The translations under genes were made by a program, and so were the position numbers. Of a DNA stretch of 64,000 bases, positions 6,986-23,235 are shown in pieces (positions within the stretch are counted from its first letter, which is position 1; each line of letters opens with the position of its first letter). The notes beneath the pieces were generated by a model. It had not been told where the DNA came from, did not search any database, and saw only the letters and a list, made by a program, of their open reading frames with translations. Source of the stretch: an uncultured Oscillospiraceae bacterium (lineage in GTDB: Bacteria; Bacillota; Clostridia; Oscillospirales; Oscillospiraceae); NCBI GenBank assembly GCA_947628805.1, contig CANRBG010000004.1:1-64000 (forward strand), written 5' to 3'.

Positions 6986-7023
6986 CATTTTTAAAGGCTG
7001 CTTTTCGGCAGCCTTTAAAAATG
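6986..7023 (+). terminator. Terminator-like hairpin after purA
   Basis: A perfect 16-bp stem (6986-7001 with 7008-7023; loop TTTTCG) starts 7 nt after the purA stop. The A/T runs are inside the stem and no U-run follows, so termination may be weak. The family B element begins right after it. Confidence 0.55.
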
Positions 7024-7025
7024 AA

Positions 7026-7158
7026 AGGCTTGCGGCCCGCTGCAGCGCACGCGCAAGCGCGCACGTTTGCGGGCCGAGAAGTGTTTTTTCCGAGGCACAT
7101 GTCCCCGGAAAAAACGATCCTACTTCATTCGGCTCTGCGGAGCCGAACTCTGCGAGGC
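7026..7158 (-). repeat. Family B structured intergenic element, copy B1 (between purA and nadE)
   Basis: Read on the minus strand it starts GCCTCGCAGAG (7158-7148). Stem P1 is TTCGGCTC/GAGCCGAA (7128-7135, 7140-7147). Stem P2 is GTTTTTTCCG/CGGAAAAAAC (7083-7092, 7106-7115) with the conserved loop GACATGTGC. Stem P3 is CGGCCCGC/GCGGGCCG (7033-7040, 7069-7076), enclosing CAAACGTG and a GC-rich apical hairpin. The same architecture occurs at 10400-10582 and 22929-23235. Unlike those copies it lies between co-directional genes and is antisense to them. Its end CTCTGCGAGGC places GAGG 7 nt before the nadE ATG. Confidence 0.85.
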
Positions 7159-7164
7159 ATAATT

Positions 7165-7896
7165 ATGAGAGACTATAAAGAAGAATTTGAAAAGCGCATT
7201 TCGTTCATAAAAGAAACCCTGGCGAAGAGCGGTCAAAAGGGCATCGTGTACGGCAACTCCGGCGGCAAGGACTGCACCCTGGTGGGCATTTTGTGCAAGG
7301 CCGCCTGTGACGATACCGTGGGCGTGCTCATGCCCTGCGCCTCCCAGCGCAATTTCAGCATCGACCTGGCCGACGGAAAAGCCGTGGCGGAAAAGTACCA
7401 CATCGAGACAAGGCTCGTGGACCTGACCCCGGTCCGGGAGGCGGAGCTTGCCGCCCTTTCCGGCGTCACGGCCATGACCGACGCGGCCATCGCCAACATC
7501 GCCCCCCGGCTGCGGATGACCACCCTGTACGCCATCGCCGGGGCCGAGGGCCGGCTGGTGGCCGGCACCGGCAACCGCTCCGAGGCGTACATGGGCTACT
7601 TCACCAAGTGGGGCGACGGGGCCCATGACTTCAATCCCATCGCGGACCTGACCGTGACGGAGATATACGAGTTTTTGGCCTGGCTGGACGCGCCCATGTC
7701 CGTCCGGACTAAGGCCCCCTCGGCGGGGCTGTTCGAGGGCCAGACCGACGAGACGGAGATGGGCGTCACCTACGCCGCCATCGACCAGTACCTGCTCCAC
7801 GGCACCGCCAGCGACCGGGACAAGGCCGTCATCGACCGGTTCCACGCCGCCAGCCAGCACAAGCGCCAGCCCATCGCCACCTACTCCGACCAATGA
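7165..7896 (+). CDS. nadE: NAD(+) synthase (ammonia-dependent type)
   Basis: Amidates deamido-NAD to NAD. It has 243 residues, the length of NH3-dependent enzymes without a glutaminase domain. The adenine-nucleotide hydrolase loop reads SGGKDC at residues 32-37, where the usual motif is SGGxDS. Downstream are GTGNRSE (near 134), YFTKWGDG, DFNPIADL and PSAGLFEGQTDE, all characteristic of NadE. ATG 7165 follows GAGG that belongs to repeat B1. The stop overlaps the fumarase alpha start (ATGA), indicating translational coupling. Confidence 0.9.
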   Translation: MRDYKEEFEKRISFIKETLAKSGQKGIVYGNSGGKDCTLVGILCKAACDDTVGVLMPCASQRNFSIDLADGKAVAEKYHIETRLVDLTPVREAELAALSGVTAMTDAAIANIAPRLRMTTLYAIAGAEGRLVAGTGNRSEAYMGYFTKWGDGAHDFNPIADLTVTEIYEFLAWLDAPMSVRTKAPSAGLFEGQTDETEMGVTYAAIDQYLLHGTASDRDKAVIDRFHAASQHKRQPIATYSDQ

Positions 7897-8657
7897 GCGT
7901 GCGCGAGATCGACGCCGCCCGGCTGGCCGACGCCGTGGCGCGGCTGTACGTAAGTGCCTGCCTGCATCTGTCTCCCTATGTGGAGGAAAAGCTCCGGGAC
8001 TTCGGCAACCCCTATATCATTGAGAATTTTGAGACCAACGGCGCTATCCCCCTGTGCCAGGACACCGGCATGGCCGCTGTGTACCTGGAGGTGGGCCAGG
8101 ACGTACACATCACCGGCTCCATCCCGGACGCGGTGGACGAGGGCGTCCGCCGGGCGGTGCGGGATGGGTATCTGCGCGCCTCCATCGTGACGGACCCTCT
8201 GCGCCGGACCAACACCGGGGACAACACCCCCGCCTGCCTCTATACGGACATCGTCCCCGGGGACCGGGTCAAGGTGACCGTGGTCCCCCGGGGCTTTGGC
8301 TGTGAGAACAAGGCGAGGATCGCCATGCTGGCCCCGGCGGACGGTCTGGAGGGCGTGAAGGCCTTCGTGCTGGAAACGGCCCGCCTGGCGGTGCCGGACG
8401 CCTGCCCGCCGGTGACGATCGGCGTGGGCCTGGGGGGCAACTTCGACCGGGCGGCGTATCTGTCCAAAAAGGCCGTGCTGCGCCAGGGTCCCAACCCGGA
8501 CCCCTTTTACGGGGCCCTGGAGGCGGAGCTCTACAAGGCCACGAAAAAGTTTTCCCTGGCCGTGAACATCCTGACCGCCCCCACCCACATCGCGGGACTG
8601 CCCTGCGCGGTGAGCATCGGCTGCCATAGCCTCAGATGCGCGTCGGAGGTATTGTGA
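7893..8657 (+). CDS. Class I fumarate hydratase (or tartrate dehydratase), alpha subunit
   Basis: Carries the [4Fe-4S] catalytic part of the two-subunit, iron-sulphur fumarase. It has 254 residues, slightly shorter than the usual 280. Cluster ligands are likely Cys55 (PLCQDTGM), Cys137 (GFGCENKA) and Cys244 (IGCHSLR). Start overlaps nadE by 4 nt; the beta subunit begins just after its stop. L-tartrate dehydratase uses the same folds and cannot be told apart by sequence here. The malic enzyme neighbour favours fumarate. Confidence 0.9.
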   Translation: MSVREIDAARLADAVARLYVSACLHLSPYVEEKLRDFGNPYIIENFETNGAIPLCQDTGMAAVYLEVGQDVHITGSIPDAVDEGVRRAVRDGYLRASIVTDPLRRTNTGDNTPACLYTDIVPGDRVKVTVVPRGFGCENKARIAMLAPADGLEGVKAFVLETARLAVPDACPPVTIGVGLGGNFDRAAYLSKKAVLRQGPNPDPFYGALEAELYKATKKFSLAVNILTAPTHIAGLPCAVSIGCHSLRCASEVL

Positions 8658-8658
8658 C

Positions 8659-9189
8659 ATGGAAAAACACATCCAAACCCCGCTGACGGACGAGGTCGTC
8701 CGGTCCCTCCGGGCAGGCGACAAGGTCCGCATCACCGGCGTGGTGTACACGGCACGGGACGCGGCCCATAAGCGGCTGTGCGAGCTGCTGGGCGCGGGCG
8801 AGCCCCTGCCTTTCGACATGCGGGGCCAGATCGTCTACTACACCGGCCCCACCCCGGCCCCGCCGGGCCGTCCCATCGGCTCCTGCGGGCCTACCACCTC
8901 CTACCGGATGGACCCCTACACCCCCCGGCTGCTGGCCCAGGGCCTGCAGGGCCTCATCGGCAAGGGCCGACGGAGCCAGGCGGTCATCGACGCGCTGAAA
9001 GCCCGGCCCGGGGTCTACTTTTCCGCGGAGGGCGGCTGCGGCGCGCTGCTGGCAAACTATGTGAAAAGCAGCGAGCTGGTGGCCTTTCCCGAGCTGGGTG
9101 CCGAGGCAGTGCGCCGGCTGGAAGTGGAAAACTTCCCTGTAGAGGTCTTCTGCGACTGTGAGGGCAATATCTACTCCCCCTATCTCTGA
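8659..9189 (+). CDS. Class I fumarate hydratase, beta subunit
   Basis: Partner of the preceding gene, 176 residues. It shows the swivelling beta-domain features: LRAGDKVRITGVVYTARDAAHKR at the N-terminus, YTGPTP, GSCGPTTSYRMD near residues 73-85 and GKGRRS. It starts 1 nt after the alpha subunit stop. Together they hydrate fumarate to malate, the substrate of the next gene. Confidence 0.92.
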   Translation: MEKHIQTPLTDEVVRSLRAGDKVRITGVVYTARDAAHKRLCELLGAGEPLPFDMRGQIVYYTGPTPAPPGRPIGSCGPTTSYRMDPYTPRLLAQGLQGLIGKGRRSQAVIDALKARPGVYFSAEGGCGALLANYVKSSELVAFPELGAEAVRRLEVENFPVEVFCDCEGNIYSPYL

Positions 9190-9214
9190 AACAAAACCAA
9201 AAAGGAACCGACCC

Positions 9215-10396
9215 ATGACCCATTCAGATTATCTGCAAGCCTCGTTGGAAGCCCACGCCCGCTGGCGGGGAAAGCTGACCGTGGAGAGCAGGGCCCCGGT
9301 GGAAACGGCGGAGGATCTGGCTCTGGCCTACACCCCCGGGGTGGCGGCCCCCTGTCTTGCCATACAAAAGGACCCGGCCAAGAGCTATGAGCTCACCGGC
9401 CGGTGGAACACCGTGGCGGTGGTAACGGACGGCTCGGCAGTGCTGGGTCTGGGCGACATCGGCCCGGAGGCGGGCATGCCCGTCATGGAGGGCAAGTGCG
9501 CGCTGTTCAAGGCATTCGGCGGCGTGGACGCGGTGCCCCTTTGCATCCGCTCCCACGACCCGGAGGATATCGTGCAAACCGTCTCGCTGCTGGCCGGCAG
9601 CTTCGGCGGGATCAATCTGGAGGACATCGCCGCCCCCCGGTGCTTTGAGATCGAGCGGCGGCTGAAAGAGCTTTGCGACATCCCCGTGTTCCACGACGAC
9701 CAGCACGGTACCGCCATCATCGCCCTGGCGGGGCTTTTGAACGCCCTGAAAGTGGTGGGAAAGCGCCTGGACGCGGTCCGGGTGGTGATCAACGGCGCCG
9801 GCGCGGCGGGCGCCGCCATCGGCCGGCTCTTGGCGGACGCCGGGGCCGGGGACGTGATCGTCTGCGACCGGTCCGGCCCCATCGCCGCCGGCCGGGCGGG
9901 GCTCAACCCCGCCAAGGAGACCCTGGCCGCCGTCACCAACCGGGACCGGCTCACCGGGTCCCTTGCCGACGCCCTCCGGGGGGCGGACGTGTTCATCGGC
10001 GTGTCGGCTCCCGGGGCCGTCACCGGCGAGATGGTCCGCTCCATGGGGAAAGACCCCATCATCTTCGCCTGCGCCAACCCCACGCCGGAGATCTTCCCCG
10101 ACGAGGCCCGGGCCAACGGCGCGGCGGTCACGGCCACGGGCCGCAGCGACTATCCCAATCAGCTCAACAACGTGCTGGCCTTTCCCGGGGTGTTCCGGGG
10201 TGCCCTGGACGTGCGGGCAAGCGATATAAACCACGCCATGAAGCTGGCAGCGGCCCACGCCCTGGCGGGGCTGGTGGGCGAGAGCGAGCTCAGCCCCGAC
10301 TACATCATCCCAAGACCCTTCGACCCCCGGGTCCGGGACGCGGTGGCCTCCGCCGTGGCCCGGGCGGCCCGAGAATCCGGCGTGGCAAGGATATAA
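9215..10396 (+). CDS. Malic enzyme (oxaloacetate-decarboxylating malate dehydrogenase)
   Basis: Oxidatively decarboxylates malate to pyruvate. It has 393 residues, the short bacterial class without a phosphotransacetylase domain. Motifs seen: YTPGVAAPC near the N-terminus, the metal-site segment PVFHDDQHGTA and the nucleotide-binding VINGAGAAGAA. ATG 9215 follows AAAGGAACC. Cofactor preference (NAD or NADP) cannot be read with confidence. It closes the fumarate-to-pyruvate string that begins with purB/purA. Confidence 0.93.
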   Translation: MTHSDYLQASLEAHARWRGKLTVESRAPVETAEDLALAYTPGVAAPCLAIQKDPAKSYELTGRWNTVAVVTDGSAVLGLGDIGPEAGMPVMEGKCALFKAFGGVDAVPLCIRSHDPEDIVQTVSLLAGSFGGINLEDIAAPRCFEIERRLKELCDIPVFHDDQHGTAIIALAGLLNALKVVGKRLDAVRVVINGAGAAGAAIGRLLADAGAGDVIVCDRSGPIAAGRAGLNPAKETLAAVTNRDRLTGSLADALRGADVFIGVSAPGAVTGEMVRSMGKDPIIFACANPTPEIFPDEARANGAAVTATGRSDYPNQLNNVLAFPGVFRGALDVRASDINHAMKLAAAHALAGLVGESELSPDYIIPRPFDPRVRDAVASAVARAARESGVARI

Positions 10397-10399
10397 AAA

Positions 10400-10582
10400 G
10401 CCTCGCAGAGTTCGGCTCCGCAGAGCCGAATAAAGTTGGATATGATTTCCGGCGACATGTGCGTCGGAAATCATTCTTTGCGGCCTGCAAACGTGCAAAA
10501 AGCCCGACTTTCTAAGTCGGGCTTTTTCGTGCGCTGCGGCAGGCCGAGGCTTTCTCGTTTGAATGCGATGCATTCAAACGAC
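10400..10582 (+). repeat. Family B structured intergenic element, copy B2 (between convergent malic enzyme and polC)
   Basis: Begins GCCTCGCAGAG 3 nt after the malic enzyme stop. P1 is TTCGGCTC/GAGCCGAA (10411-10418, 10423-10430). P2 is ATGATTTCCG/CGGAAATCAT (10442-10451, 10465-10474), differing from the other copies by paired changes, with loop GACATGTGC. P3 is CGGCCTGC/GCAGGCCG (10481-10488, 10539-10546), and GCCTCG/CGAGGC closes the whole (10400-10405, 10545-10550). The apical slot holds a textbook terminator. A 12-bp hairpin TCGTTTGAATGC/GCATTCAAACGA (10555-10581) follows, also present in B3, and ends at the polC stop codon. Confidence 0.88.
10497..10527. terminator. Bidirectional rho-independent terminator inside element B2
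   Basis: AAAAAGCCCGACTT, loop TCT, AAGTCGGGCTTTTT: a perfect 14-bp stem with A-run and T-run. It would work from either side, ending the malic enzyme transcript (+) and the polC operon (-). Confidence 0.9.
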
Positions 10583-13500
10583 TACATATCGAAAAGCGTC
10601 ATTTGGCTGGTCTCCGGCAGGTCGCCGAAAGCGCCCAGCTTGCGCAGCTCCTGGATGTGGGCCGCGCTGACCTTGGGGCAGGCCGCCGCCAGCTCCTCCA
10701 CGGACACGAACGCGCGACCGCCTTTCCGGGCGTTGGCCAGATCCATCGCCGCCGCCTCTCCCAGGCCGGGGATGGCCACGAAGGGGATGCGCAGGCGCTT
10801 TTCGTCCACCAGGTCGAATTTGAACGCGTCGGACTCATACAGGTCGATGGGCGCGAAGTCGAATCCCCGCATATAAAACTCATAGACCATCTCCAGCGTC
10901 GTGGCAAGGCTTTCCTCGTTTGACGTGGCGTTGGGATTGGAGCGGATCTCTTTTAGCTTGGCTTTGACCTGATTAACGCCCCCCGTCATGATCTCCACGT
11001 CGAAAAAGTTCTTCTGGCTGCGGCGATAGAAAAGGGCCGAGTAGAACGCCAGGGGCTCGTGGACCTTGTACCAGGCGATGCGGAAGGCCATCAGCACATA
11101 GGCCACCGCGTGGGCCTTGGGGAACAGGTACTCGATCTTTCGGCAGGAGTCGATGTACCACTGGGGCACCCCGTGCTCTTTCATGACGGCGATCTGCTCG
11201 TCGGTGAGCTGCTTGTTCTTCTTGCGGACGTTCTCCATGGCCTTGAAGGCCGTGTTGGCGTCGATGCCCTGCTGCATGAGATAGATCATGATGTCGTCCC
11301 GGCAGCCGATGGTCTGGGAGACGCCGGCGGTGCCGGACTTGATCAGGTCCTGGGCGTTGCCCACCCACACGCCGGTGCCGTGGGAGTAGCCGGACAGCCG
11401 CACCAGCATGTCGAATTTGTCCGGCTTGGTGTCCACCAGCATCTGGCGGGTGAAGCCCGTGCCGAACTCCGGTATGCCCAGGGACCCGGTCTGGCCGATG
11501 ATGGGGTCGTCATCCGGGACCCCCAGGGCCTTGGGCGAGGAGAAAAGGCTCATGGTGGGCCCGTCGTCCAGGCGGATGGTCTTGGCATCCGTGCCGGTGA
11601 GGTTTTCCAGCATGTTGATCATGGTGGGATTATCGTGGCCCAGCTCGTCCAGCTTCAGCAGATAGTCCTCCATGAAGTGGTATTCCAGATGGGTGGTGAC
11701 GATGTCCGTGCCCGCGTCGTCCGCCGGGTGCTGGACCGGGCAGAAGTCCGTCACGTCCATGTCCTGGGGGATGATCACCAGCCCGCCCGGATGCTGGCCC
11801 GTGGTGCGCTTGACGCCCACCAGTCCCAGGGTCAGCCGGTTCATCTCCGCCTGGTTGAAGGAAAGCCCCTTCTCCTCCACATAGTGGCGCACGTAGCCGT
11901 AGGCGGTCTTGTCCGCGATGGTGCCCACCGTGCCCGCCTTGAACACATGGTCGTCGCCGAAAAGGGTCTTGGTATAGGCGTGGGCGTTGGCCTGATACTC
12001 GCCGGAGAAGTTCAGGTCGATATCCGGGACCTTGTCGCCCTTGATGCCCAAAAAGGTGGCAAAGGGGATGTCAAAGCCCTCCTTGCGCATCTCCGTGCCG
12101 CAGCGGGGGCACAGCTTGTCCGGCATATCAGCCCCGCAGCCGTAGCCCTTGCCGGACTCGAAATCCGTGTGATAGCACTTGGGGCACAGATAGTGGGCCG
12201 GCAGGCTGTTCACCTCCGTGATGCCCGCCAGATACGCCACCAGACTGGACCCCACGCTGCCCCGGCTGCCCACCAGATACCCGTGGGCCAGGGAGTCCGC
12301 CACCAGCTTCTGGGCGGACATGTAGATCACGTCGAAATGCCGGCCAAGGATGGTGTCCATCTCCATCTTCACCCTGTCGGTGATGATCTGCTCCGGTTTT
12401 TCCCCGTAAAGCTCCCGCAGCCTGCCGTAGACCAGCGCTTTCAGCTGCTCGGCGGAATTTTCGATCACCGGCGGGTACAGGTGATGCTCCGGCAGCAGAT
12501 CCACCTGCCCCTCCACCATGTCCGCCACGGCGTTGGGGTTGGTCACCACCACCTCAAAGGCCTTCTCCTCGCCCAGGTAGGCGAATTCCTCCAGCATCTC
12601 CTCCGTGGTGCGAAAGTACAGGGGCATCTCCTGGTCCGCGTCGGCAAAATGTTTTTCGTTGAGCAGGATGTGCCGGAATATCTCGTCCTCCGCGTCCAGA
12701 AAATGCACGTCCCCCGTGGCGCAGACGGGCTTGCCCAGGGCCTGGGCCACGGCGATCACCCGCCGGTTGAAGTCCTGCAGCTGCTCCACGCTCTTCACCA
12801 TGCCGTTTTCCAGCATGAAGGCGTTGTTGGCGATGGGCATGATCTCAAAGTAGTCGTAAAAGGCGCCCAGCCGCATCAGGGCCGCCCGGCCCCGGTGCCG
12901 GCTCACCGCCTGGTAGAACTCCCCCGCCTCGCAGGCGGAGCCCACCAGCAGCCCCTCCCGGTGCTGCTCCAGCAGGCTCCGGGGGATGATGGGCCGCTTG
13001 TTGAAATGCTCCAGGTGGCTTTTGGATATGAGCTCGTAGAGGTTTTTGAGCCCCTTTCGGTTTCGGACCAGCAGGGATATATGCCGAGTCCGGGGCTGCC
13101 GGCCCGTCTTCCGCCGCAGGGCCCGGCAGGTCCCGTTCACCTGATCCAGCCGCTGGGCCCCCTGCTCCTGGAGCATGGGGATGAGCCTGGTCAGGATCCG
13201 GCCGCAGACCAGCGCGTCGTCCGCCGCCCGGTGGTGGTTGAAGCCGGGCAGGCCCAGCCGGTCCGATACCATGTCCAGCTTGAACTTGCGCATGTCCGGC
13301 AGCAGGACCTGGGACAGGGTCAGCGTGTCGATGTATACTGGGTCGAAGGCCCGGCCCATCCGCTCCGCCGCGCAGCCGATGAAGCTCACGTCAAAGTCCG
13401 CGTTGTGGGCACACAGGGGAAGCTGGCCCACGAAATCCAAAAAGGCCCCCACCGCCTCCGCCTCGTCCGGGGCGTCGAACACGTCCCGGTCCGTGATGCC

Positions 13501-14595
13501 CGTCAGGCGCTGGATGTCGGCCGGAATGGGCCTTCCCGGGTTTACATAAGTCTTAAATTGCTCTGCGGGCTTCCCGCCCCGGAAGGCGGTGGCGCCGATC
13601 TCCGTTATCCGGTCATATTCATCGGAAAGGCCCGTCGTTTCAATGTCAAACGCCACAAAATCCCCGTCCAGCGGCGCGGGTCCCACCGGTCCGTGGACGG
13701 CGGCGCTGTCGTCGATATCGTTAACATAATACCCCTCCATGCCATAGATGACCTTGATGGTCTTCCCCGCTTTCGCCAGGTCGGCGGCGGCCTTGGAGGC
13801 GGCGGGGAACGCCTGGGCCACACCGTGATCGGTGATGGCGATGGCCGGCATACCCCAGTAGGCGGCCCGCTTGATGGCGGCGGCCGGGTCCGTCAGGGCG
13901 TCCATCATGGACATCTGGGTGTGCAGATGCAGCTCCACCCGTTTTTGGGGAGCGTTGTCCCGGCGGGGCTCGGGAGTGGGGGCTGTCTGGATGTGCCGGG
14001 GCTCCAGCTCCACCTCTTTGGAGTAGTTATTGAACCGCATGGACCCGGACACGGTCAGGTACAGGCCGGGCTTGATCCGGTCGATGATGGACTGGTCCTC
14101 TTCCTTGGGGATATATTTGGACACCCGGACGCTGCCGGAGCCGTCTGTCATGTCGAACTGGAGCACCGACGCGCCCAGCCGCTGGATGGCCCGGCTCTCG
14201 GCGGCGAAGACCTGGCCGCTGACCGTCACGGTCTTCTGCTCGGGGCTGGCGTCGGCCATGGGGATGATCTTGCCCTTGATGGCCCGGCCCAGCAGCACCT
14301 TCCCTCCGGCGGACCCGGTCCCAGCAGGCTTTTTGTCCTGGGCCGGACGGGCCTCCGCCTGGGGCCAGGCGGCCTCAATGCGCACCTCCGCCAGGCCGTA
14401 CTCCGCCCGGATGGCCCATTCCAGGGCCGACAGCTCCGCCGGGGAGGGCATGGCGGGAAACTGGGCGCGGATGACCATGCTGGCCTTGTCACGGTTCACC
14501 GTGGCGTCCAGCACGAAAGCCTCGCCCAGGTCGCTGTAGCTCTTATCGATCCCCTGGCAGCAGGGGAACATTTCCAGAAACGCTACCTTCTCCAA
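10582..14595 (-). CDS. polC: DNA polymerase III alpha subunit, PolC type
   Basis: Replicative polymerase of low-GC-type Gram-positives; here 1337 residues, about 100 shorter than Bacillus PolC. Visible order: N-terminal and OB regions, PHP start VELHLHTQMSMMDA (near 222), the embedded DEDD 3'-5' exonuclease FDIETTGLSDEYDRI (near 317), zinc-binding CPKC...CPRC (near 805-830) and the polymerase core PDIDLNFSGEY (near 860). The earliest in-frame start is TTG 14595, with AAGGAG 12 nt upstream and a stop just before it. An internal ATG at codon 9 is an alternative. It is the last gene of the pyrH-to-polC run. Confidence 0.96.
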   Translation of the reverse strand: MEKVAFLEMFPCCQGIDKSYSDLGEAFVLDATVNRDKASMVIRAQFPAMPSPAELSALEWAIRAEYGLAEVRIEAAWPQAEARPAQDKKPAGTGSAGGKVLLGRAIKGKIIPMADASPEQKTVTVSGQVFAAESRAIQRLGASVLQFDMTDGSGSVRVSKYIPKEEDQSIIDRIKPGLYLTVSGSMRFNNYSKEVELEPRHIQTAPTPEPRRDNAPQKRVELHLHTQMSMMDALTDPAAAIKRAAYWGMPAIAITDHGVAQAFPAASKAAADLAKAGKTIKVIYGMEGYYVNDIDDSAAVHGPVGPAPLDGDFVAFDIETTGLSDEYDRITEIGATAFRGGKPAEQFKTYVNPGRPIPADIQRLTGITDRDVFDAPDEAEAVGAFLDFVGQLPLCAHNADFDVSFIGCAAERMGRAFDPVYIDTLTLSQVLLPDMRKFKLDMVSDRLGLPGFNHHRAADDALVCGRILTRLIPMLQEQGAQRLDQVNGTCRALRRKTGRQPRTRHISLLVRNRKGLKNLYELISKSHLEHFNKRPIIPRSLLEQHREGLLVGSACEAGEFYQAVSRHRGRAALMRLGAFYDYFEIMPIANNAFMLENGMVKSVEQLQDFNRRVIAVAQALGKPVCATGDVHFLDAEDEIFRHILLNEKHFADADQEMPLYFRTTEEMLEEFAYLGEEKAFEVVVTNPNAVADMVEGQVDLLPEHHLYPPVIENSAEQLKALVYGRLRELYGEKPEQIITDRVKMEMDTILGRHFDVIYMSAQKLVADSLAHGYLVGSRGSVGSSLVAYLAGITEVNSLPAHYLCPKCYHTDFESGKGYGCGADMPDKLCPRCGTEMRKEGFDIPFATFLGIKGDKVPDIDLNFSGEYQANAHAYTKTLFGDDHVFKAGTVGTIADKTAYGYVRHYVEEKGLSFNQAEMNRLTLGLVGVKRTTGQHPGGLVIIPQDMDVTDFCPVQHPADDAGTDIVTTHLEYHFMEDYLLKLDELGHDNPTMINMLENLTGTDAKTIRLDDGPTMSLFSSPKALGVPDDDPIIGQTGSLGIPEFGTGFTRQMLVDTKPDKFDMLVRLSGYSHGTGVWVGNAQDLIKSGTAGVSQTIGCRDDIMIYLMQQGIDANTAFKAMENVRKKNKQLTDEQIAVMKEHGVPQWYIDSCRKIEYLFPKAHAVAYVLMAFRIAWYKVHEPLAFYSALFYRRSQKNFFDVEIMTGGVNQVKAKLKEIRSNPNATSNEESLATTLEMVYEFYMRGFDFAPIDLYESDAFKFDLVDEKRLRIPFVAIPGLGEAAAMDLANARKGGRAFVSVEELAAACPKVSAAHIQELRKLGAFGDLPETSQMTLFDM

Positions 14596-14655
14596 AACCT
14601 ATGTACGCTCCTTGAGCTTGTCAAAAAACAAGTTTTTGACCGCTCATGATTGAAA

Positions 14656-14767
14656 CTGCTCGGCGGAAGTGAATCCCGCCGGCAGGAAGTCAAAAGCCTG
14701 TCGCACAGCGGCTTTTGACTTCACGCGCGTGAATGACGCGCGGCTCGGCCTGACCGGCCTTCGCTCC
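14656..14767 (-). repeat. Family A structured intergenic element, copy A2 (between ispG and polC)
   Basis: Same order as A1 and in the same sense as the downstream gene polC. Stems: GGCC/GGCC (14747-14759, loop TGACC on the plus strand), CGCGCG/CGCGCG (14724-14729, 14737-14742), a 13-bp stem GAAGTCAAAAGCC (14686-14698) with GGCTTTTGACTTC (14710-14722), and CGGCGG/CCGCCG. Between it and polC lies a separate small hairpin GTCAAAAA/TTTTTGAC (14620-14640). The remaining gap to ispG (14768-14838) holds only a CTTTGAC...GTCAAAG inverted repeat. Confidence 0.85.
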
Positions 14768-14838
14768 CTTTCATCCGGCCTTTGACCGTCTGACTCCTTA
14801 TCGCTCTCTGCGTCAAAGAGCTTAGCATATGCCGTGTC

Positions 14839-15897: not shown

Positions 15898-16973
15898 TTC
15901 AAAACGATCCTCGCTATGTCGTTGTACATCACGTACACCATCAGCCCCATCAGCAGCACCAGCCCGGCAGTATTCACGTATCCCTCGTACTTGGGATCGA
16001 TGCGCCGGCGGAAGATGTGCTCCAAGAGCCATGTCACCAGCAGGAAGAAGATACGCCCTCCGTCCAGAGCCGGCAGGGGCAGCAGGTTCATCACCGCCAG
16101 GTTCACCGCGATGAATGCCCCCAGATACAGGATGTTCAATATGCCGTCATACACCGTGGGCGACTCGCTGCCCACCTGGGCCATCATGTCCACGATGCCC
16201 ACCACGCCGGTCATCTGCTTCACGCCCACCGCCCCGGTGAGCAGGTCCGTCAGGCCCAGCCGCACCATCCGCACGAAGTCCATGGCCCCGTACCAGGTGT
16301 ATTTCGCCAGGGCCAGGGGGCCGGTCTGCTTTTCCTTGAAGTACAGGCCGTATTTCATGGTGGTCTCCCCGGTGTCCGGGTCCGTGTATTCCCGCATGGT
16401 CATGGGGTAGTCGTCCAGGCGGACCTTTTTCCCGTCCCGAACCAGGACGATGTCGGCGGTATCGCCGCCGCCCCGGGCCATATAGGTGGCCACGTCGCTG
16501 GAAAAGTAGGTCCGCTCCCCGTTGATCCGGTAAAAAGTGTCCCCCACCATCAGACCATTCGGCCCCTCATAGGGACAGCCCTCCATAAAGCCGGTGATGG
16601 TGGGCGGCGCGAACGAGCCCACCTGGGAAAAGCACACCGCCACCATGGCCAGACCCAGCAGGAAGTTCATGGCGACGCCGGCCACCAGAATGACGATCCG
16701 CTTCCAGACCGGAGCGTTGCTGAATGCCGCCGGGTCGTCGGAGTCGCCCTCCTCCCCTTCCAGGGCGCAGAAGCCCCCGATGGGCAGCAGCCGCAGGCTG
16801 ATCTGGGTCCCGCTCGCGGACTGCTTGTGCCACAGCAGCGGGCCCATGCCGATGGCGAATTCCAGCACCTTCACCCCGCACAGCCGGGCCGCCAGAAAAT
16901 GGCCCAGCTCATGGATGGCGATCAGCACGCCGAAGATCAATATGGCTAAAAGAACATACAGGAACGTACTCAT
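15894..16973 (-). CDS. rseP: RseP-type site-2 membrane metalloprotease
   Basis: Intramembrane zinc protease, 359 residues. The first membrane segment carries HELGH at residues 21-25; the third ligand region is NLLPLPALDGGR (near 298). A PDZ-like domain lies between. In Bacillota this protease acts on anti-sigma factors and signal-peptide remnants. It lies between dxr and ispG, the common Clostridia order. Both flanks are tight: 59 nt to dxr and a 4-nt overlap with ispG. Confidence 0.94.
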   Translation of the reverse strand: MSTFLYVLLAILIFGVLIAIHELGHFLAARLCGVKVLEFAIGMGPLLWHKQSASGTQISLRLLPIGGFCALEGEEGDSDDPAAFSNAPVWKRIVILVAGVAMNFLLGLAMVAVCFSQVGSFAPPTITGFMEGCPYEGPNGLMVGDTFYRINGERTYFSSDVATYMARGGGDTADIVLVRDGKKVRLDDYPMTMREYTDPDTGETTMKYGLYFKEKQTGPLALAKYTWYGAMDFVRMVRLGLTDLLTGAVGVKQMTGVVGIVDMMAQVGSESPTVYDGILNILYLGAFIAVNLAVMNLLPLPALDGGRIFFLLVTWLLEHIFRRRIDPKYEGYVNTAGLVLLMGLMVYVMYNDIARIVLK

Positions 16974-17032
16974 ATTTCATCTCCCGGAACCGTTGACGAG
17001 GTCTGCAATAGTGTATTCAGCCTGCGGGGAAA

Positions 17033-18166
17033 TTATCGGCCGTTCACGATCCGGCGGGCCTCCCCGTCGGCGGCCAGGATGTCGTCCAGGGTGGGGTCGG
17101 CCTTGCCGGGCACGGCGTCCACCGCCGCCGCCACCTTGTCGTAGATGTCGTTATAGCCGATCCGTCCGGCCAGAAACGCCGCCACGGCGGCCTCATTGGC
17201 CGCGCTCATCACCGCCGGGGCCAGGCCCCCTTTCCGGGCGCAGTCCATAGCCAGGGCAAGACAGGGGGTCTTTTCCAAGTCCGGTGCCTCAAAGGTCATG
17301 TCCCGCATCTGCCAGAAATCCAGCCGCTCATAGGGGGACTCCACCCGGTCCGGCCAGGTCATGGCGTACTGGATGGGCAGGCCCATGTCCGGCACCGCCA
17401 GCTGGGCCAGCACAGTGCCGTCAATGAGCTCCACCATGGAGTGGATCACGCTCTGGGGATGGACCACCACCTGGATGTCGTCCGGCGTCACGCCGAAAAG
17501 GTGCATGGCCTCGATGAATTCCAAGCCCTTGTTCATCATGGTGGCGCTGTCCACGGATATCTTGGCGCCCATGTTCCAGTTGGGGTGCTTCACCGCCTGC
17601 GCCGGGGTGACGGAGGCGGTCTGCCCCCGGGTCCAGCCCCGGAAGGGCCCGCCGGAGCCGGTGAGCAGTATCTTTCTCAGCTGGTCCCGCCGGCCCTCCA
17701 GGCACTGGAAGATGGCCGAGTGCTCCGAGTCCACGGGCACGATCTGGGCCCCGCAGTCCGCCGCGGCCTTCATCACGATGGACCCGGCGCAGACCAGTGT
17801 CTCCTTATTGGCCAGGCAGATACGCTTTTTGGCCGCGATGGCGTCCAGGGTGGGACGCAGGCCCACGGAGCCGGACACCGCCGTCACCACGCCCTCACAG
17901 TCCACCGTGGCCGCCCGGCGCAGGCCCTCCAGGCCCTGACCGATCTCTATGTCCAGATCCGCCACGGCAATGCGCAACTGCGCCGCCGCGTCGGGGTCGT
18001 ATACCGCCGCGAAGGAGGGGCGGAATTTGCGTATCTGCTCTTCCAGCAGGCCAATGCTCTTCTGGGCGGTCAGGGCCTCCACACGCAGGCCCAGCCGCTC
18101 CGCCGCCGCCAGGCTCTGGCGGCCGATGGAGCCCGTGGAGCCCAATACCGAAACGGACTTGATCAT
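17033..18166 (-). CDS. dxr: 1-deoxy-D-xylulose-5-phosphate reductoisomerase
   Basis: Converts DXP to MEP with NADPH, the committed step of non-mevalonate isoprenoid synthesis. It has 377 residues. The Rossmann motif LGSTGSIG is at residues 8-15, and the substrate/metal region reads VPVDSEHSAIFQ followed by LTGSGGPFR. ATG 18164-18166 overlaps the uppS stop (ATGA). No cdsA lies between uppS and dxr, unlike the usual order. Confidence 0.96.
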   Translation of the reverse strand: MIKSVSVLGSTGSIGRQSLAAAERLGLRVEALTAQKSIGLLEEQIRKFRPSFAAVYDPDAAAQLRIAVADLDIEIGQGLEGLRRAATVDCEGVVTAVSGSVGLRPTLDAIAAKKRICLANKETLVCAGSIVMKAAADCGAQIVPVDSEHSAIFQCLEGRRDQLRKILLTGSGGPFRGWTRGQTASVTPAQAVKHPNWNMGAKISVDSATMMNKGLEFIEAMHLFGVTPDDIQVVVHPQSVIHSMVELIDGTVLAQLAVPDMGLPIQYAMTWPDRVESPYERLDFWQMRDMTFEAPDLEKTPCLALAMDCARKGGLAPAVMSAANEAAVAAFLAGRIGYNDIYDKVAAAVDAVPGKADPTLDDILAADGEARRIVNGR

Positions 18167-18897
18167 GCCTTCCCCTCTCCCACGTCGCCGTACCGGCGTT
18201 CCCGGTTTTGGTAGGCGGCGATGGCCTTGTCGAATTCCTTTTCGTCGAAGTCCGGCCACAGCACGTCGGAGAAGTAAAACTCCGCGTAGGCCAGCTCCCA
18301 CAGCAAAAAGTTGGAGATGCGCATCTCCCCGCCGGGCCGGATCAGCAGGTCCGGGTCCGGGATATGCCCGCCCCACATATAGCCGCCGAACACGTCCTCG
18401 TCAAGCGCCGGGCAGCCGTCCGCCGCCCATTTTTTTGCCGCCCGGACGATCTCATCCCGGCCGCCGTAGTTGAGGCAGATGTTCACCTGGCAGCCGCTGT
18501 ATGCCTTCGACCGCTCCATGCATTCCTCACACATCTGGCGCAGCTCCGGGGAGAAGGGCGCCAGATCCCCGAAGATGCAGATGCGGATCTTTTCCTTTTC
18601 CATGTCCCGCAGGGCCTGGCGCAGGTACTTTTCCAGCAGCTTCATGATGCCGGCTACCTCGTCGGCGGGCCGCTTCCAGTTCTCCGTGGAGAAGGCGTAG
18701 ACCGTGAAATACTCCACGCCCAGCTTTTGGCAGTACCGGGCCGCCCGGCGGAAGCTGTCCGCCCCGGCGGTGTGGCCCGCCGTCCGAGGCAGGCCCCGCC
18801 GCTTGGCCCAGCGGCCGTTGCCGTCCATAATGACGGCGATATGGCGGGGGAGTCCTTGGGACCCTCCCGCCAATACGTTCCGCTCTTTGCCGCTCAT
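18163..18897 (-). CDS. uppS: Undecaprenyl diphosphate synthase (isoprenyl transferase)
   Basis: Adds isopentenyl units in cis to make the C55 lipid carrier for peptidoglycan. It has 244 residues. Catalytic region [13 protein letters not shown] with Asp25; substrate loop [12 protein letters not shown]-terminal [20 protein letters not shown], where RTGG is more usual than RPGG. Coupled to frr and dxr by ATGA overlaps. Confidence 0.96.
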
Positions 18898-19445
18898 ATG
18901 GCGAACAGCTCTTTTTCCTTGGCGTCGGTGAGCTTGTCGATGTCCTTGATGTTGTCGTCGGTGAGCTTTTGCAGCTCCTTTTCCAGGTCCTTCTGATCGT
19001 CCTCGGTGATGTCGCCGGCCTTCTGCTGCTTTTTGATCTTCTCCATGGCGTCCCGGCGGATGTTGCGCACGGCCACCTTGGCCTCCTCGCCGTACTTGCG
19101 CACCTGCTTAGCCAGCTCCTTGCGCCGCTCCTCGGTGAGCTGCGGGAAGGCCAGCCGGATCACCCGGCCGTCGTTCTGGGGGTTGATGCCCAGCTCCGAG
19201 GCCTGGATGGCCTTTTCGATGCCTTTCAGCACGGAGCCGTCCCAGGGGGTGATCACCAGCGTCCGGGGGTCCGGCACGGAGATGGCGGCCACCTGGTTGA
19301 TGGGCGTGGGAGAGCCGTAATAGTCCACGGTGATACCGTTGAGCACCGCGGCGTTGGCCCGCCCGGCCCGGACAGAGTCAAACTGGCCGGAGAGAAAATC
19401 CTTTGCTTTTTGCATCTTGGTTTCAAATTCCTTGAGCTCAGACAT
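18894..19445 (-). CDS. frr: Ribosome recycling factor
   Basis: Splits post-termination ribosomes with EF-G. It has 183 residues, exactly typical. The body shows [20 protein letters not shown] and the C-terminal helix ends [14 protein letters not shown]. Start ATG has a strong AAGGAGG 7 nt upstream, stronger than its coupled neighbours, consistent with higher expression. Follows pyrH by 41 nt. Confidence 0.97.
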
Positions 19446-19486
19446 GGTCAGGTCCTCCTTATGCGTTATTTATCGATAGATCAAGT

Positions 19487-20200
19487 TTAATCCACAAAGG
19501 TGCCCAGCTTCTCTCCGCAGACCGCCCGGACGATGTTCTCCGGCGGGTCCAGGGCGAAGATCATGGTGGGGATGGCGTTGTCCCGCAAAAGGCTGGTGGC
19601 CGCCGCGTCGATGACCCGCAGGTCCTTGGTCAATATCTCGCTGTAGCCGATGTGGTCCAGCCGTTTGGCGGCGCGGTCGGTCCGGGGGTCGGCGGTATAG
19701 ACCCCGTCGATGTTCTTTGCCATGAGAAGCGCCTCCGCGCCGATCTCCGCGGCCTTCAGCGCGGCGGCGGAGTCCGTGGAGAAATAGGGGTTGCCGCTGC
19801 CGGCGGCGAACAGCACCACCCGGCCCAGCCGCAGATGGCGCATGGCCCGGCCATAGGAGTAGGGCTCCGCCACCCGGGGCATATCCAGCATGGTCATCAC
19901 CCGGGCGGAGACGCCCACCTGCTCCAGCACCTCGCACAGGGCCAGGCTGTTCATCACCGTTGCCAGCATGCCCATCAGGTCGGCCCGGGACCGCTCCATC
20001 TTCCCGCCGCCGTCCTTGGCGCCCCGCCAGTAGTTGCCGCCGCCGGTGACAAGGCCCATCTGCACGCCCATATCCGCGCAGCTCTTGATGGCCAGCGCGG
20101 TCTTTTTCATCATATTGAAATCCAGCCCACGGCCGCTCTCCCCTCCCAGGGCCTCGCCGCTGAGCTTAAGCAATACGCGCTTGTACGCCGGTTTATCCAT
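19487..20200 (-). CDS. pyrH: UMP kinase
   Basis: Phosphorylates UMP to UDP. It has 237 residues of the amino-acid-kinase fold. Motifs: KLSGEAL near residues 13-19, GGGNYWRG, DLMGMLATVMN and the C-terminal YTADPRTD. First gene of the pyrH-frr-uppS-dxr-rseP-ispG-polC operon. GAGGTG lies 8 nt before the ATG. In many Bacillota rpsB-tsf precede pyrH; here they are about 17 kb away. Confidence 0.96.
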   Translation of the reverse strand: MDKPAYKRVLLKLSGEALGGESGRGLDFNMMKKTALAIKSCADMGVQMGLVTGGGNYWRGAKDGGGKMERSRADLMGMLATVMNSLALCEVLEQVGVSARVMTMLDMPRVAEPYSYGRAMRHLRLGRVVLFAAGSGNPYFSTDSAAALKAAEIGAEALLMAKNIDGVYTADPRTDRAAKRLDHIGYSEILTKDLRVIDAAATSLLRDNAIPTMIFALDPPENIVRAVCGEKLGTFVD

Positions 20201-20301
20201 AGCGTTTTCACCTCGTGCCTGTTTGTCTCATTGTACGGTCAAAATGGTTACATTTTCAACCTCATCGGGCGGCTTTTTCGCCCCGTATGAGCCGCCTTTA
20301 A

Positions 20302-20330
20302 ATTTTACCACAACCGCCTGCCGATTTCAA
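20302..20330 (-). promoter_or_regulatory. Promoter of the pyrH-frr-uppS-dxr-rseP-ispG-polC operon
   Basis: Minus strand TTGAAA (20325-20330), 17 bp, TAAAAT (20302-20307). It leaves a 5' leader of about 95 nt before pyrH. It lies back to back with the spoIIGA start. Confidence 0.75.
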
Positions 20331-20365
20331 CCGGCTTCGCATCCGGCCGGGGCTACAATCGTCCC

Positions 20366-21178
20366 ATGAAGACCCTGTATCTGGATGAACAGTTCCTGCT
20401 GGAGCTTATCATCGACTACTTCCTGCTGCTGGGCACGGCCAAGGTCTGCGCCCTGCCCTACCGGCGGCTTCGGTTTCTGGCGGGAGCGGCGCTGGGAGCG
20501 GGCTGGAGCTGCGCGTCGTTCCTGCCGGAGCTTTCCTGGCTGGCAGCGCCGGTCATGCGGCCTGTGCTGGCCATGGGCATGACGCTGACGGCCTTCGGGG
20601 ACCAGCGGCGTCTTTTCCGCTGTTTCGGGGCGTTTTTGGGGGTGTCGGCCCTGTTCGGCGGGGCGGTATACGCGGCGGGACTGCTGCGCTTGGCCCAGAC
20701 CGGCGGGACCGGGCCCCTGCTGCGGCTGGATATGCGGGTGCTGGTACTGGCCTTCGCCATCTGCTGGGCGGCGGTGAGTCTGCTGTTCCGGGCAGGAACG
20801 AAAAACGCCGCCCGGCGCATCCGGGACGTGACGGTGGAGCGGGCCGGCCGGTCCGTGCGGCTGCGGGCGCTGGAGGACACGGGCAATTCCCTGGTGGACC
20901 CCATCTCCGGCTGCGCCGCCTTCGTGGCGGAGGCGGCGGCCCTGGGGGAGCTCTTCCCCGGACCGGAGGCGGCGCTGCTCCGGGGCCCGCCGACGGAGGC
21001 CGTCCTGCGCATTCCCGGCATGCGGCTCATCCCCTATACCGGCGTAGGCGGCGGCGGGCTGCTGCTTGCCTTCCGACCGGACCGGATCACCGTGGACGGA
21101 CGGGAACGGCGGGATCTGATCGCCGCCGTGGCGTCCGCCCCCCTGGGCGCGGACGGTATGTATGACGCGGTAATATGA
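20366..21178 (+). CDS. spoIIGA: Sporulation sigma-E factor processing peptidase
   Basis: Membrane-bound aspartic protease that matures pro-sigma-E in the mother cell. It has 270 residues, somewhat shorter than the Bacillus protein. The N-terminal half is a set of hydrophobic membrane segments beginning YLDEQFLLELIIDYFLLLG. The C-terminal protease domain has LEDTGNSLVDPISG with the predicted catalytic Asp171. It is 17 nt upstream of sigE. No Shine-Dalgarno sequence is seen before ATG 20366. TACAAT (20354-20359) is so close that the transcript may be leaderless. Confidence 0.92.
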   Translation: MKTLYLDEQFLLELIIDYFLLLGTAKVCALPYRRLRFLAGAALGAGWSCASFLPELSWLAAPVMRPVLAMGMTLTAFGDQRRLFRCFGAFLGVSALFGGAVYAAGLLRLAQTGGTGPLLRLDMRVLVLAFAICWAAVSLLFRAGTKNAARRIRDVTVERAGRSVRLRALEDTGNSLVDPISGCAAFVAEAAALGELFPGPEAALLRGPPTEAVLRIPGMRLIPYTGVGGGGLLLAFRPDRITVDGRERRDLIAAVASAPLGADGMYDAVI

Positions 21179-21195
21179 AAGGAGCGTAAAGGACC

Positions 21196-21900
21196 ATGAA
21201 CAAGCTGAAACTCTTTCTCCTGCAATTGCAGCTGCGTTTCCAGCTGACGAGCCCGATCTTCTACATCGGCGGCAGCGATATCCTGCCCCCGCCGCTGGAA
21301 AAGGACCAGGAGGAAGCCGCTATCGCCGCCCTGATCCAGGGCGACCACGAGGCCCGCCAGGCCCTCATCGAGCACAATCTTCGCCTGGTGGTCTACATCG
21401 CCCGCCGGTTCGAGAATACCGGCGTGAATATCGAGGACCTGATCTCCATCGGCACCATCGGCCTGATCAAGGCCATCGGCACCTTCAACCCGGATAAGCG
21501 CATCAAGCTTGCCACCTACGCCTCCCGGTGCATCGAAAACGAGATCCTCATGTTCCTGCGCAAAAAGAGCTCCCACCGGGTGGAGGTATCCATCGACGAG
21601 CCGCTGAACACGGACTGGGACGGTAACGAGCTGCTTTTGTCGGACGTGCTGGGCACCGACGGCGAGGAAGTGATCAAGCCCATCGAGGACGATGTGGAGC
21701 GGCAGCTTCTCATGGAGGCGGTGGACCGGCTGGACGAGCGGGAGCGGTCCATCATCCTGATGCGCTTCGGCCTGGAGGGCTACGAGGAACTGACCCAAAA
21801 GGAGGTGGCAGACCTGCTGGGCATCTCCCAAAGCTACATAAGCCGCCTGGAAAAGCGCATCATCCTGCGGCTGCGCCGGGAGCTGATCCGCCAGTTTTGA
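21196..21900 (+). CDS. sigE: RNA polymerase sporulation sigma factor SigE
   Basis: Mother-cell sigma factor, 234 residues. The N-terminal pro-segment (about residues 1-25) is the SpoIIGA target. Region 2 reads [31 protein letters not shown]; region 4 reads [44 protein letters not shown] precedes ATG 21196. In most Clostridia sigG follows directly; here a terminator/promoter and dus follow instead. Confidence 0.96.
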
Positions 21901-21903
21901 ATA

Positions 21904-21932
21904 TTGACACCCCGGCCCTTTGCAGATACAAT
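21904..21932 (+). promoter_or_regulatory. Promoter of dus, embedded in the sigE terminator
   Basis: Perfect -35 TTGACA (21904-21909), 17 bp, TACAAT (21927-21932). The spacer contains the left arm of the sigE terminator stem and the -10 lies in its loop. Confidence 0.8.
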
Positions 21933-21949
21933 GGGCCGGGGCGGTTTTT
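21910..21949 (+). terminator. Rho-independent terminator of spoIIGA-sigE
   Basis: CCCCGGCCC (21910-21918) pairs with GGGCCGGGG (21933-21941), followed by CGG and five T. It starts 10 nt after the sigE stop. Confidence 0.75.
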
Positions 21950-21963
21950 GCCCGGGAGGCGGT

Positions 21964-22932
21964 ATGATAATAGGCTCCGTACAAGTGAACGGCCCGGCGG
22001 CGCTGGCCCCTATGGCGGGGGTGACGGACGCCGCGTTCCGGCATATCTGCCGCGAGCTGGGCGCGGCGCTGACCTGCACGGAGATGGTCTCCAGCCGGGG
22101 GCTTGTGTACAACGACGCCAAGACCAAAGAGCTTTTGTACTGTCCCGACGGCGACCGGCCCGTGGCGGCCCAGATATTCGGCTCGGACCCCGCCATTATG
22201 GCGGAGGCCGCCCCCATGGCCATTGAGCTGTCCGGGGCGGACATCCTGGACATCAACATGGGCTGTCCCGTGGGCAAGATCGTCAAAAGCGGCGACGGCT
22301 CCGCCCTCATGCGGGACCCGGACAAGGCCGGGCGCGTCGTCGAAGCCTGCGTACGCACCGCGGGCGTGCCGGTGACGGTGAAGTTCCGCAAGGGCTGGGA
22401 CGGGGGCAGCGTCAACGCGGTGGAGTTTGCCAGAGTGTGTGAGCAGGCTGGGGCCGCCGCCGTCACCGTCCATGGCCGGACCCGGGTGCAGATGTACGCC
22501 GGCCAGGCGGACTGGGACATCATCCGGGACGTGAAAGCGGCGGTGAGCATCCCGGTCATCGCAAATGGGGACGTATTTTCCGCCGGCGACGCGGTCAGGC
22601 TTCTGCGCCGGACCGGCGCGGACATGTGTATGGTGGGCCGGGGCGCTTTCGGGGACCCCTGGCTCTTTGGGCGGATCAACGCCGCCGTAGAAGGTCTGCC
22701 AGAGCCGGCGACGCCGCCCCTGAGGTCGCGGATGGAGACGGCCCTGGAGCAGTTTGAGCTGGCCTGCCGGTGGAAAGACCCCCACATCGCCTGTCTGGAG
22801 GCCCGCAAACAGCTGTGCTGGTACCTGCGGGGGGTGCCCTGGTCCGGTCCCATCAAGCGGGAGATCGTAAAGGTGAATACCCTGGACGACATCCGCGCCA
22901 TCGTCCGCCGGGTCCAGCGAGAATTAAAATAA
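21964..22932 (+). CDS. dusB: tRNA-dihydrouridine synthase (DusB type)
   Basis: FMN-dependent reduction of uridines in tRNA D-loops. It has 322 residues. N-terminal APMAGVTDAAFR, the catalytic cysteine in DINMGCPVGKIVKSGDGSALM, then VTVHGRTRVQMYAG and the phosphate-binding MVGRGAFGDPWLF are all family motifs. ATG 21964 follows GGGAGG; an upstream in-frame ATG would start inside the promoter. Dus subtypes are hard to separate; the B-type call is by overall pattern. Confidence 0.93.
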   Translation: MIIGSVQVNGPAALAPMAGVTDAAFRHICRELGAALTCTEMVSSRGLVYNDAKTKELLYCPDGDRPVAAQIFGSDPAIMAEAAPMAIELSGADILDINMGCPVGKIVKSGDGSALMRDPDKAGRVVEACVRTAGVPVTVKFRKGWDGGSVNAVEFARVCEQAGAAAVTVHGRTRVQMYAGQADWDIIRDVKAAVSIPVIANGDVFSAGDAVRLLRRTGADMCMVGRGAFGDPWLFGRINAAVEGLPEPATPPLRSRMETALEQFELACRWKDPHIACLEARKQLCWYLRGVPWSGPIKREIVKVNTLDDIRAIVRRVQRELK

Positions 22933-23235
22933 GTCGTTTGAAAAGCATGGGCCTCGCAGAGTTCGCGCCCGGGGGCGCGAATAGAATGAGATCGTTTTTT
23001 CCGGGGACATGCGCCTCGGAAAAAACTCTTATCAGCCCACAAACGTGAACGCCCCCATCCATCAGATGGGGGCGCTTTGCGCTTATTGGGGTCCCCACAA
23101 AGCCTGCTTTGTGGGGAGAGGAGAAGCCACGGGCCATTTGAACTTTGCCGCTTGCGGCAAAGGGAAACCTGGCCTGTGGGCGACGACGAGGGCTGCAGCC
23201 TTCTCGTTTGAATGCGATGCATTCAAACGACTTAT
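22929..23235 (+). repeat. Family B structured element, copy B3, with 14-bp terminal inverted repeats (MITE-like)
   Basis: Fills the whole gap between convergent dus and pyk. It is bounded by ATAAGTCGTTTGAA (22929-22942) and its exact reverse complement (23222-23235), each overlapping a stop codon. Inside: GCCTCGCAGAG; P1 TTCGCGCC/GGCGCGAA (22962-22969, 22974-22981); P2 GTTTTTTCCG/CGGAAAAAAC (22994-23003, 23017-23026) with loop GACATGCGC; CAAACGTG; apical stem CGCCCCCAT/ATGGGGGCG (23050-23058, 23066-23074). It is longer than B1 and B2, with extra hairpins CCCCACAAAGC/GCTTTGTGGGG and CTTTGCCGC/GCGGCAAAG. The 12-bp 3' hairpin (23204-23230) is identical to that of B2. No coding sequence is supported here. 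Confidence 0.88.

Follow-up and report, generated by a model that had tools for sequence, protein, structure and literature searches.

The window analysed here comprises 64,000 nucleotides of an uncultured Oscillospiraceae bacterium (assembly GCA_947628805.1, contig CANRBG010000004.1, positions 1 to 64,000) and holds three copies of an intergenic element built of hairpins, namely copy A at 6986–7158 on the minus strand, and copies B and C at 10400–10582 and 22933–23231 on the plus strand. In a first-pass annotation, loops that stay fixed while the stems around them vary had been read as a selected fold, perhaps a mobile repeat or small-RNA class not tied to one gene. The locus thus raises the question of what such an element is and how it reaches the gaps between genes. 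Our best explanation, to which we assign a probability of roughly three in four, is a non-autonomous, IS1182-type, terminator-targeting mobile element of ~180–300 bp that carries a selected folded core. This reading draws on the copies and their covariation, on inverted-repeat ends, hairpin duplication and insertion polymorphism, and on IS1182 elements of the same ends and habit. We further infer that an IS1182 transposase moves the element, above all in the genus of the window, that the core acts in folded form and that the element is transcribed as part of neighbouring mRNAs.

Copies and fold of the element

A covariance model, hereafter R1, was built from 19 full copies of the window genome. 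Its search of that 1.72-Mb genome yielded 21 strong copies at E ≤ 8e-11 and 24 matches at E ≤ 1, in line with the tens of copies per genome that had been anticipated. The motif GCCTCGCAGAGTTCG occurs 15 times in the 1.72-Mb assembly against zero occurrences of its reversed control, so that the likenesses within the window are not due to chance. As had also been proposed, the element is not tied to one gene, the genes flanking its copies being unrelated to one another. R1 detected it in 34 of 35 genomes of the window genus, in one of two other sampled genera of the same family, and in 66 copies (87 with laxer filters) in G042, a genome of another family. An even sample of the Oscillospirales, with at most 14 candidates per genome scored, showed the element in 36 of its 295 genomes, which represent 22 of 149 genera. 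In named genomes, a pattern scan recovered at least 116 stretches with it, including Sporobacter termitidis DSM 10068 and isolates of Flavonifractor and Pseudoflavonifractor, and six viral contigs carry it as well. Rfam (release 15) gave no match on the element at or above the gathering threshold. A permissive scan returned sub-threshold matches only (best, RNAI, 31.2 bits against 47), mostly on the generic terminator hairpin, and a known RNA family was rejected at the gathering thresholds.

The fold was evaluated in two alignments. For the 19 full copies of the window genome, RNAalifold returned hairpins P1 and P2, with at least one double change at 12 of 22 pairs, and the structure as named had 53 cells changed on both sides, compared with 15.7 in shuffles, of which 0/500 were as high. 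The second alignment, A2, comprised 117 copies from named genomes outside the R1 training set, including three weak partial matches. It used 100 of the more than 116 stretches, at loci chosen by a pattern that fixes the letters of the 5′ box and the P2 loop, not the stems. Having been fitted to R1, A2 leans towards that model; within it, 96.5% of cells pair, compensatory change occurs at all 21 pairs, and 500 double-sided cells compare with 129.9 in shuffles (0/500 as high) and with 91 in the best slid control. Two purines of the P2 loop swap together in 215 of 215 copies (A..G in 153, G..A in 62, A..A or G..G in 0), and 105 of these copies (44 A..G and 61 G..A) stem from loci picked otherwise than by the pattern. 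Because the stems change only in pairs around a fixed box and P2 loop, the fold appears to be kept by selection, either as RNA or as single-stranded DNA. Cells with G.U outnumber those with A.C by 96 to 16, and by 32 to 16 once one fixed wobble is set aside (p 0.03), which suggests that the strand described at the outset is the folding strand. A third helix closing P2 (columns 34–36 with 79–81) was rejected as unsupported, with no double changes and 82.5% of cells paired. The covariation first noted in three copies grew in the larger, independent alignment, and none of the outcomes named in advance as contrary to the proposal (no further copies, no covariation, a gathering-level Rfam match) was found.

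Several copies depart from the common form. Locus L132 has partial copies (box, P1 and half of P2) in a tandem array with a period of 71 nt and one full copy at its end. In the window genome, a 40-nt partial duplication of the 5′ box lies directly upstream of a full copy (L007/L008, contig C14), and truncated copies L010 and L020 retain the box and part of P1, followed in L010 by a long A/T-rich hairpin. Four copies of G016 (L312, L328, L332 and L336) keep the frame with a different, GAAACCGCGTTTT-like P2 loop and may represent a sub-family. A second palindromic module of ~65 nt, CTGCCGCCCGCAGGCGG...GCGCGTGCAGT, is a nested mobile piece found inside element hairpins, namely in P3 of L317, L318, L322 and L324, and in P1 of L320.

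Inverted-repeat ends, target sites and the candidate mobiliser

The element shows two hallmarks of a non-autonomous transposon derivative (MITE), terminal inverted repeats and, outside the window genus, target-site duplication. Terminal inverted repeats of the CAGNYTGTCRAAAAA type occur in many relatives, and within the window a recognisable pair is found only in copy C. In named genomes, a hairpin and CAG..TGTCRAAAAA often precede the element, whose terminal hairpin ends in TTTTTCGACAG and is followed by the first hairpin again. Flanking direct repeats with a score of at least 12 were found in 26 of 107 named-genome copies, compared with 0 of 107 controls with mismatched flanks (control maximum 11); the 107 copies derive from 171 pattern hits in all loci, from which hits with short flanks or duplicate sequences had been dropped. 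In G226, a locus-specific hairpin stands on both sides of the element in 12/12 fetched copies; the 20 regions fetched with this genome included six (four of G256 and two of G274) without a match to the box pattern. Two resolved copies of G153 had flank scores of 13 and 9. Of 37 duplicated stretches, 36 fold as hairpins at z below −2; by tract polarity, the 37 comprise 15 minus, 6 plus, 5 with both and 11 with none. The element-end pattern exceeded its reversed controls in G063 (44 vs 0), G064 (34 vs 1), G061 (25 vs 1) and G062 (6 vs 0). A search of the G226 genus for a strict empty counterpart of a duplicated copy gave no clean one: in nine relatives the element is missing next to the shared right-hand gene, six of them with a single hairpin by eye, and the left neighbour differs. 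Of note, Flavonifractor An10 also harbours a different non-coding family (L236, L248, L253 and L261), with the same CAGCCTGTCGAAAAA end, likewise beside terminator hairpins and the hairpin recurring on the far side. Loci L237 and L239 are solo palindromes made of two back-to-back ends, e.g. CAGCTTGTCGAAAAAGCTTTTTCGACAAGCTG.

A member of the IS1182 family is the likely mobiliser of the element. In Flavonifractor An10, an IS1182 copy with CAGCCTGTCG ends (L264) lies between two nearly identical copies, 36 bp each, of one terminator hairpin. Such ends, together with whole-hairpin duplication, recur in 6 of 18 further IS1182 regions (L370, L371, L375, L377, L378 and L380), most of the remaining regions having different ends. 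Two of these six lie in the element-carrying genomes G066 and G193, whose IS1182 appears to be of the matching type, as is that of the element-carrying G063. In the window genome, IS1182 pieces at four contig ends (L272, L274, L267 and L269) start or stop at terminator-like hairpins and have CAGTCTGTCAAAGAA ends; their position suggests a multi-copy insertion sequence (IS) collapsed in the assembly. The window copies contain no IS1182 transposase gene, for which the element is too short.

The habit of this family is documented in part. IS1272/TnSha1 of the IS1182 family are described as having inverted-repeat ends and as targeting stem-loops and terminators with no sequence preference (PMC5678879, PMC4923244). 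IS1272 is there described as replacing stem-loops and leaving no target duplication, which resembles the window sites, and its model gives duplication of the whole stem-loop as a possible pathway (PMC5678879). The element differs in having no transposase gene and, like one of the IS1182 groups in the present genomes, in duplicating the hairpin as a whole.

The three window sites were compared with twelve stretches fetched from sister genomes. At site A, between purA and nadE, both flanks were present in 7 of 12. Three relatives (G010, G030 and G013) have a single hairpin in 45–51 nt, others have 175 nt (G033), 672 nt (G032) or 1035 nt (G020) of other content, and G002 has the element without P1 and P2. 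Site B, between the malic enzyme gene and polC, had both flanks in 11 of 12: G002 carries the same element and G010 an element that faces the other way, the gap holds just one hairpin in G020 (71 nt) and G025 (81 nt), G021 has 463 nt, and six relatives have 1.9–3.9 kb between the genes. At site C, between dusB and the pyruvate kinase gene, G002 alone had both flanks; there the element is absent and the aligned flanks are 1 nt apart, while the window copy ends in GTCGTTTGAA and TTCAAACGAC. The element thus stands where relatives have a terminator at site A and partly at site B, and since site content differs among relatives, the insertions are polymorphic. Together with the flanking hairpin duplications in relatives, this bears out the mobile repeat that had been suggested.

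A pathway can be proposed on this basis. The ends would be recognised by an IS1182-family transposase that targets intrinsic-terminator hairpins, and between them would lie a core of P1, P2 and P3 with the fixed 5′ box and the fixed P2 loop. The transposase would join the element to a terminator hairpin at its foot. With joins at the 5′ feet, a copy of the hairpin would come to lie on either side, a route also depicted for IS1272; with joins at the 3′ feet, the hairpin would be lost, which could explain the window genus, where the element would replace terminators without duplication. In the former case, the first hairpin would be severed from its U-tract, and a neighbouring transcript would pass it, run on into the element and terminate at the second hairpin. 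As the element lies between two whole-terminator copies in many Oscillospirales, each neighbouring transcript would still meet a terminator.

A number of observations weigh against this explanation. Hairpin duplication was found in 0/17 copies of the window genome and 0/42 of its genus, in only 1 of 28 copies of G042 and G035, and in 2 of 14 resolved copies of further genomes, including 0/2 in G066 despite its intact IS1182 (14 of 20 regions were resolved; the other six comprise five from G066 and an unusable stretch of 100 bases). The end pattern of G060 (An82) equals its control (2 vs 2), and L379, an IS1182 region with the right end sequence, has no hairpin duplication. The left inverted repeat of copy C, the sole recognisable one here, differs from the resident IS1182 ends, and the empty site C of G002 has no terminator hairpin. 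Across the 295 genomes, IS1182 is not associated with the element (14/36 vs 73/259, Fisher p 0.24), so its presence was rejected as a predictor, and G042, with 87 element matches, has no IS1182 match. Given the missing association and the lack of hairpin duplication in the window genus, the role of IS1182 there is only inferred.

Window copies and their gene context

Copy A occupies the gap between purA (5704–6978, plus) and nadE (plus, start codon at 7165), with an R1 match at 7062–7158 on the minus strand (E 2.8e-27). All its parts lie on the minus strand: the 5′ box GCCTCGCAGAG (7148–7158), whose complement CTCTGCGAGGC ends 6 nt ahead of the nadE ATG, P1 (7128–7147), P2 with loop GACATGTGC (7083–7115), P3 with a short apical hairpin (7033–7076), and the terminal hairpin P4 (6986–7023), which extends the copy beyond the end first assigned to it. 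Copy B lies between the convergent malic enzyme gene (9158–10396, plus) and polC (10582–14595, minus), with its R1 match at 10400–10495 (E 1.7e-27). It consists, on the plus strand, of P1 (10411–10430), P2 with loop GACATGTGC (10442–10474), P3 (10481–10546) and P4 (10555–10581). The apical hairpin of its P3, at 10497–10527 (strand unassigned), confirms the swappable apical hairpin described earlier. By eye, its A5 and T5 flanks give it the look of a two-way intrinsic terminator, and the consensus scan did not list it.

Copy C fills the space between the convergent dusB (21904–22932, plus) and the pyruvate kinase gene (23232–24665, minus), with an R1 match at 22951–23047 (E 5.2e-27). It opens with the left inverted repeat GTCGTTTGAA(AAGC) at 22933–22946, which matches TTCAAACGAC at 23222–23231, and continues on the plus strand with P1 of the alternative stem type (22962–22981), P2 with loop GACATGCGC (22994–23026), P3 (23033–23195) and a P4 (23204–23230) identical to that of copy B. 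The motifs and stems quoted in the first-pass annotation are present in the window, with small corrections to the ends of copies A and C. Its P3 stems hold for copies A and B, whereas in copy C the outer stem of P3 is CAGCC/GGCTG, enclosing a long inserted module. That module is common to copy C and L015, though their P1 and P2 types differ, a sequence pattern that suggests module exchange between element copies. Promoter and terminator scans of the three copies found little: the terminator consensus scan gave nothing terminator-like in copies A and C, and one minus-strand site in B.

With gene calls from our own codon-usage caller, the gene on the P4 side was found to read toward the element at 21/21 sites of the window genome, 41/41 of its genus, 78/96 of named genomes, 5/5 of viral contigs and 11/12 of G226, compared with 15/22 in G042; from the counts other than those of the window genome and G226, 4, 6, 26 and 1 copies lacking a gene call on one or both sides were left out. 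In the window genome, 10 of 21 element sites lie between convergent genes; among window gene pairs at least 30 nt apart, 4 of 32 are convergent. In 6 of 10 codirectional window-genome copies examined, CTCTGCGAGGC lies 2–10 nt ahead of a start codon, so the complement of the 5′ box could double as a ribosome-binding site; elsewhere this arrangement is rare (4/25, 3/43 and 0/5). Judging by the neighbouring genes, it is the complement strand that would be transcribed, in conflict with the wobble evidence for the other strand. An age effect as the source of the orientation bias was rejected, duplicated and non-duplicated named and viral copies being alike (19:6 vs 63:12, p 0.38). Codirectional copies of the window genus differ from duplicated ones elsewhere (36:0 vs 14:6, p 0.001), a comparison confounded by lineage.

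Alternative explanations and significance

The element might instead be a host regulatory RNA, a structure in 3′ untranslated regions or between cistrons that host selection keeps at many genes, its mobility being incidental. The strict covariation, the candidate ribosome-binding site and the P4-side gene that nearly always reads toward the element speak for this account, the last less so in G042. Yet sister species hold the element, an inverted element or only a terminator at the same site, the flanking genes are unrelated, the start-codon arrangement is rare outside the window genome, and the flanking duplications mark insertion; we regard it as possible rather than probable. That the element is nothing more than an elaborate transcription terminator is highly doubtful. 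It does sit where relatives have terminators (site A, and site B in G020 and G025), the apical hairpin of copy B is terminator-like, and convergent genes are in excess. Termination, on the other hand, needs no order-wide fixed box and loop, and the consensus scan found no terminator in copies A and C, its one site in copy B being on the minus strand.

The paired changes themselves could arise with no selection on the fold, if repair or template switching used one arm of a palindrome to rewrite its partner. Double changes are far more common than single ones, entire stems alternate among a few types, and hairpin duplications stay paired too, all as arm copying would have it. This mechanism would not couple the two P2 loop purines, which swap together, and, if symmetric, predicts no strand asymmetry, against the G.U excess; moreover, the letters of the 5′ box and loop are constant across families. 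We therefore consider it improbable. REP/BIME elements with RAYT transposases form many palindromic copies beside stop codons, with a fixed motif outside the hairpin. The present element is like them in its copies beside stop codons and its fixed motif, and its fixed loops with varying stems also recall REP and IS200/IS605 ends, so that a Y1 (RAYT/IS200) transposase reading hairpins in single-stranded DNA could be envisaged; this would account for genomes without an IS1182 match, such as G042. The inverted-repeat ends and whole-hairpin target duplications are unlike REP/BIME and fit a DDE transposase of IS1182 type, which makes a REP-like origin very unlikely.

The terminator-targeting mobile element thus remains our preferred explanation. 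As a folded mobile element it agrees with the first-pass annotation, which had no relatives to compare and so missed what shows in other genera: the ends with their inverted repeats, the doubling of terminator hairpins and the connection with IS1182. As to the core, our best guess is a folded RNA with a role for the element itself or at the ends of mRNAs. More tentatively, and in our estimate rather doubtful, the element could be a bacterial counterpart of a short interspersed element (SINE), i.e. a selfish structured RNA that borrows an IS1182 transposase and lands inside intrinsic terminators. If so, duplication of the hairpin would leave the core with a host promoter ahead of it and a ready-made terminator behind it. 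Every insertion would yield a defined RNA in a 3′ untranslated region, and selection would see the folded core, which may serve its own spread or host regulation.

Structured, non-autonomous, intergenic mobile repeats are known as a kind. IS1630 of Mycoplasma fermentans, of the IS30 family, is reported to insert at, and to duplicate, inverted repeats that vary in length and sequence; unlike the element, it is autonomous and belongs to another transposase family. The pneumococcal BOX, RUP and SPRITE repeats share with the element a short, structured and modular make-up, intergenic sites with an excess of convergent genes, short inverted-repeat ends and a probably parasitic nature, and differ in their unrelated sequence; the excerpted account tells of no hairpin target duplication in them and places them mainly in a few streptococci, whereas the element spans several families of one order (PMC3049150). 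In the literature searched, no description was found of this element, or of a covarying core found across an order in combination with ends of IS1182 type and duplication of the whole terminator.

A few bacteria are known to have structured interspersed repeats, mostly without a known mobiliser. In the element, a fold that covaries strongly throughout an order is linked with a transposase group that can be named and with an unusual mode of targeting, the duplication of whole terminator hairpins. It makes testable the notions that terminators are a safe harbour for mobile DNA and that a transposon-borne fold is selected as RNA, and it accounts for a repeat that clutters the intergenic regions of common gut bacteria.

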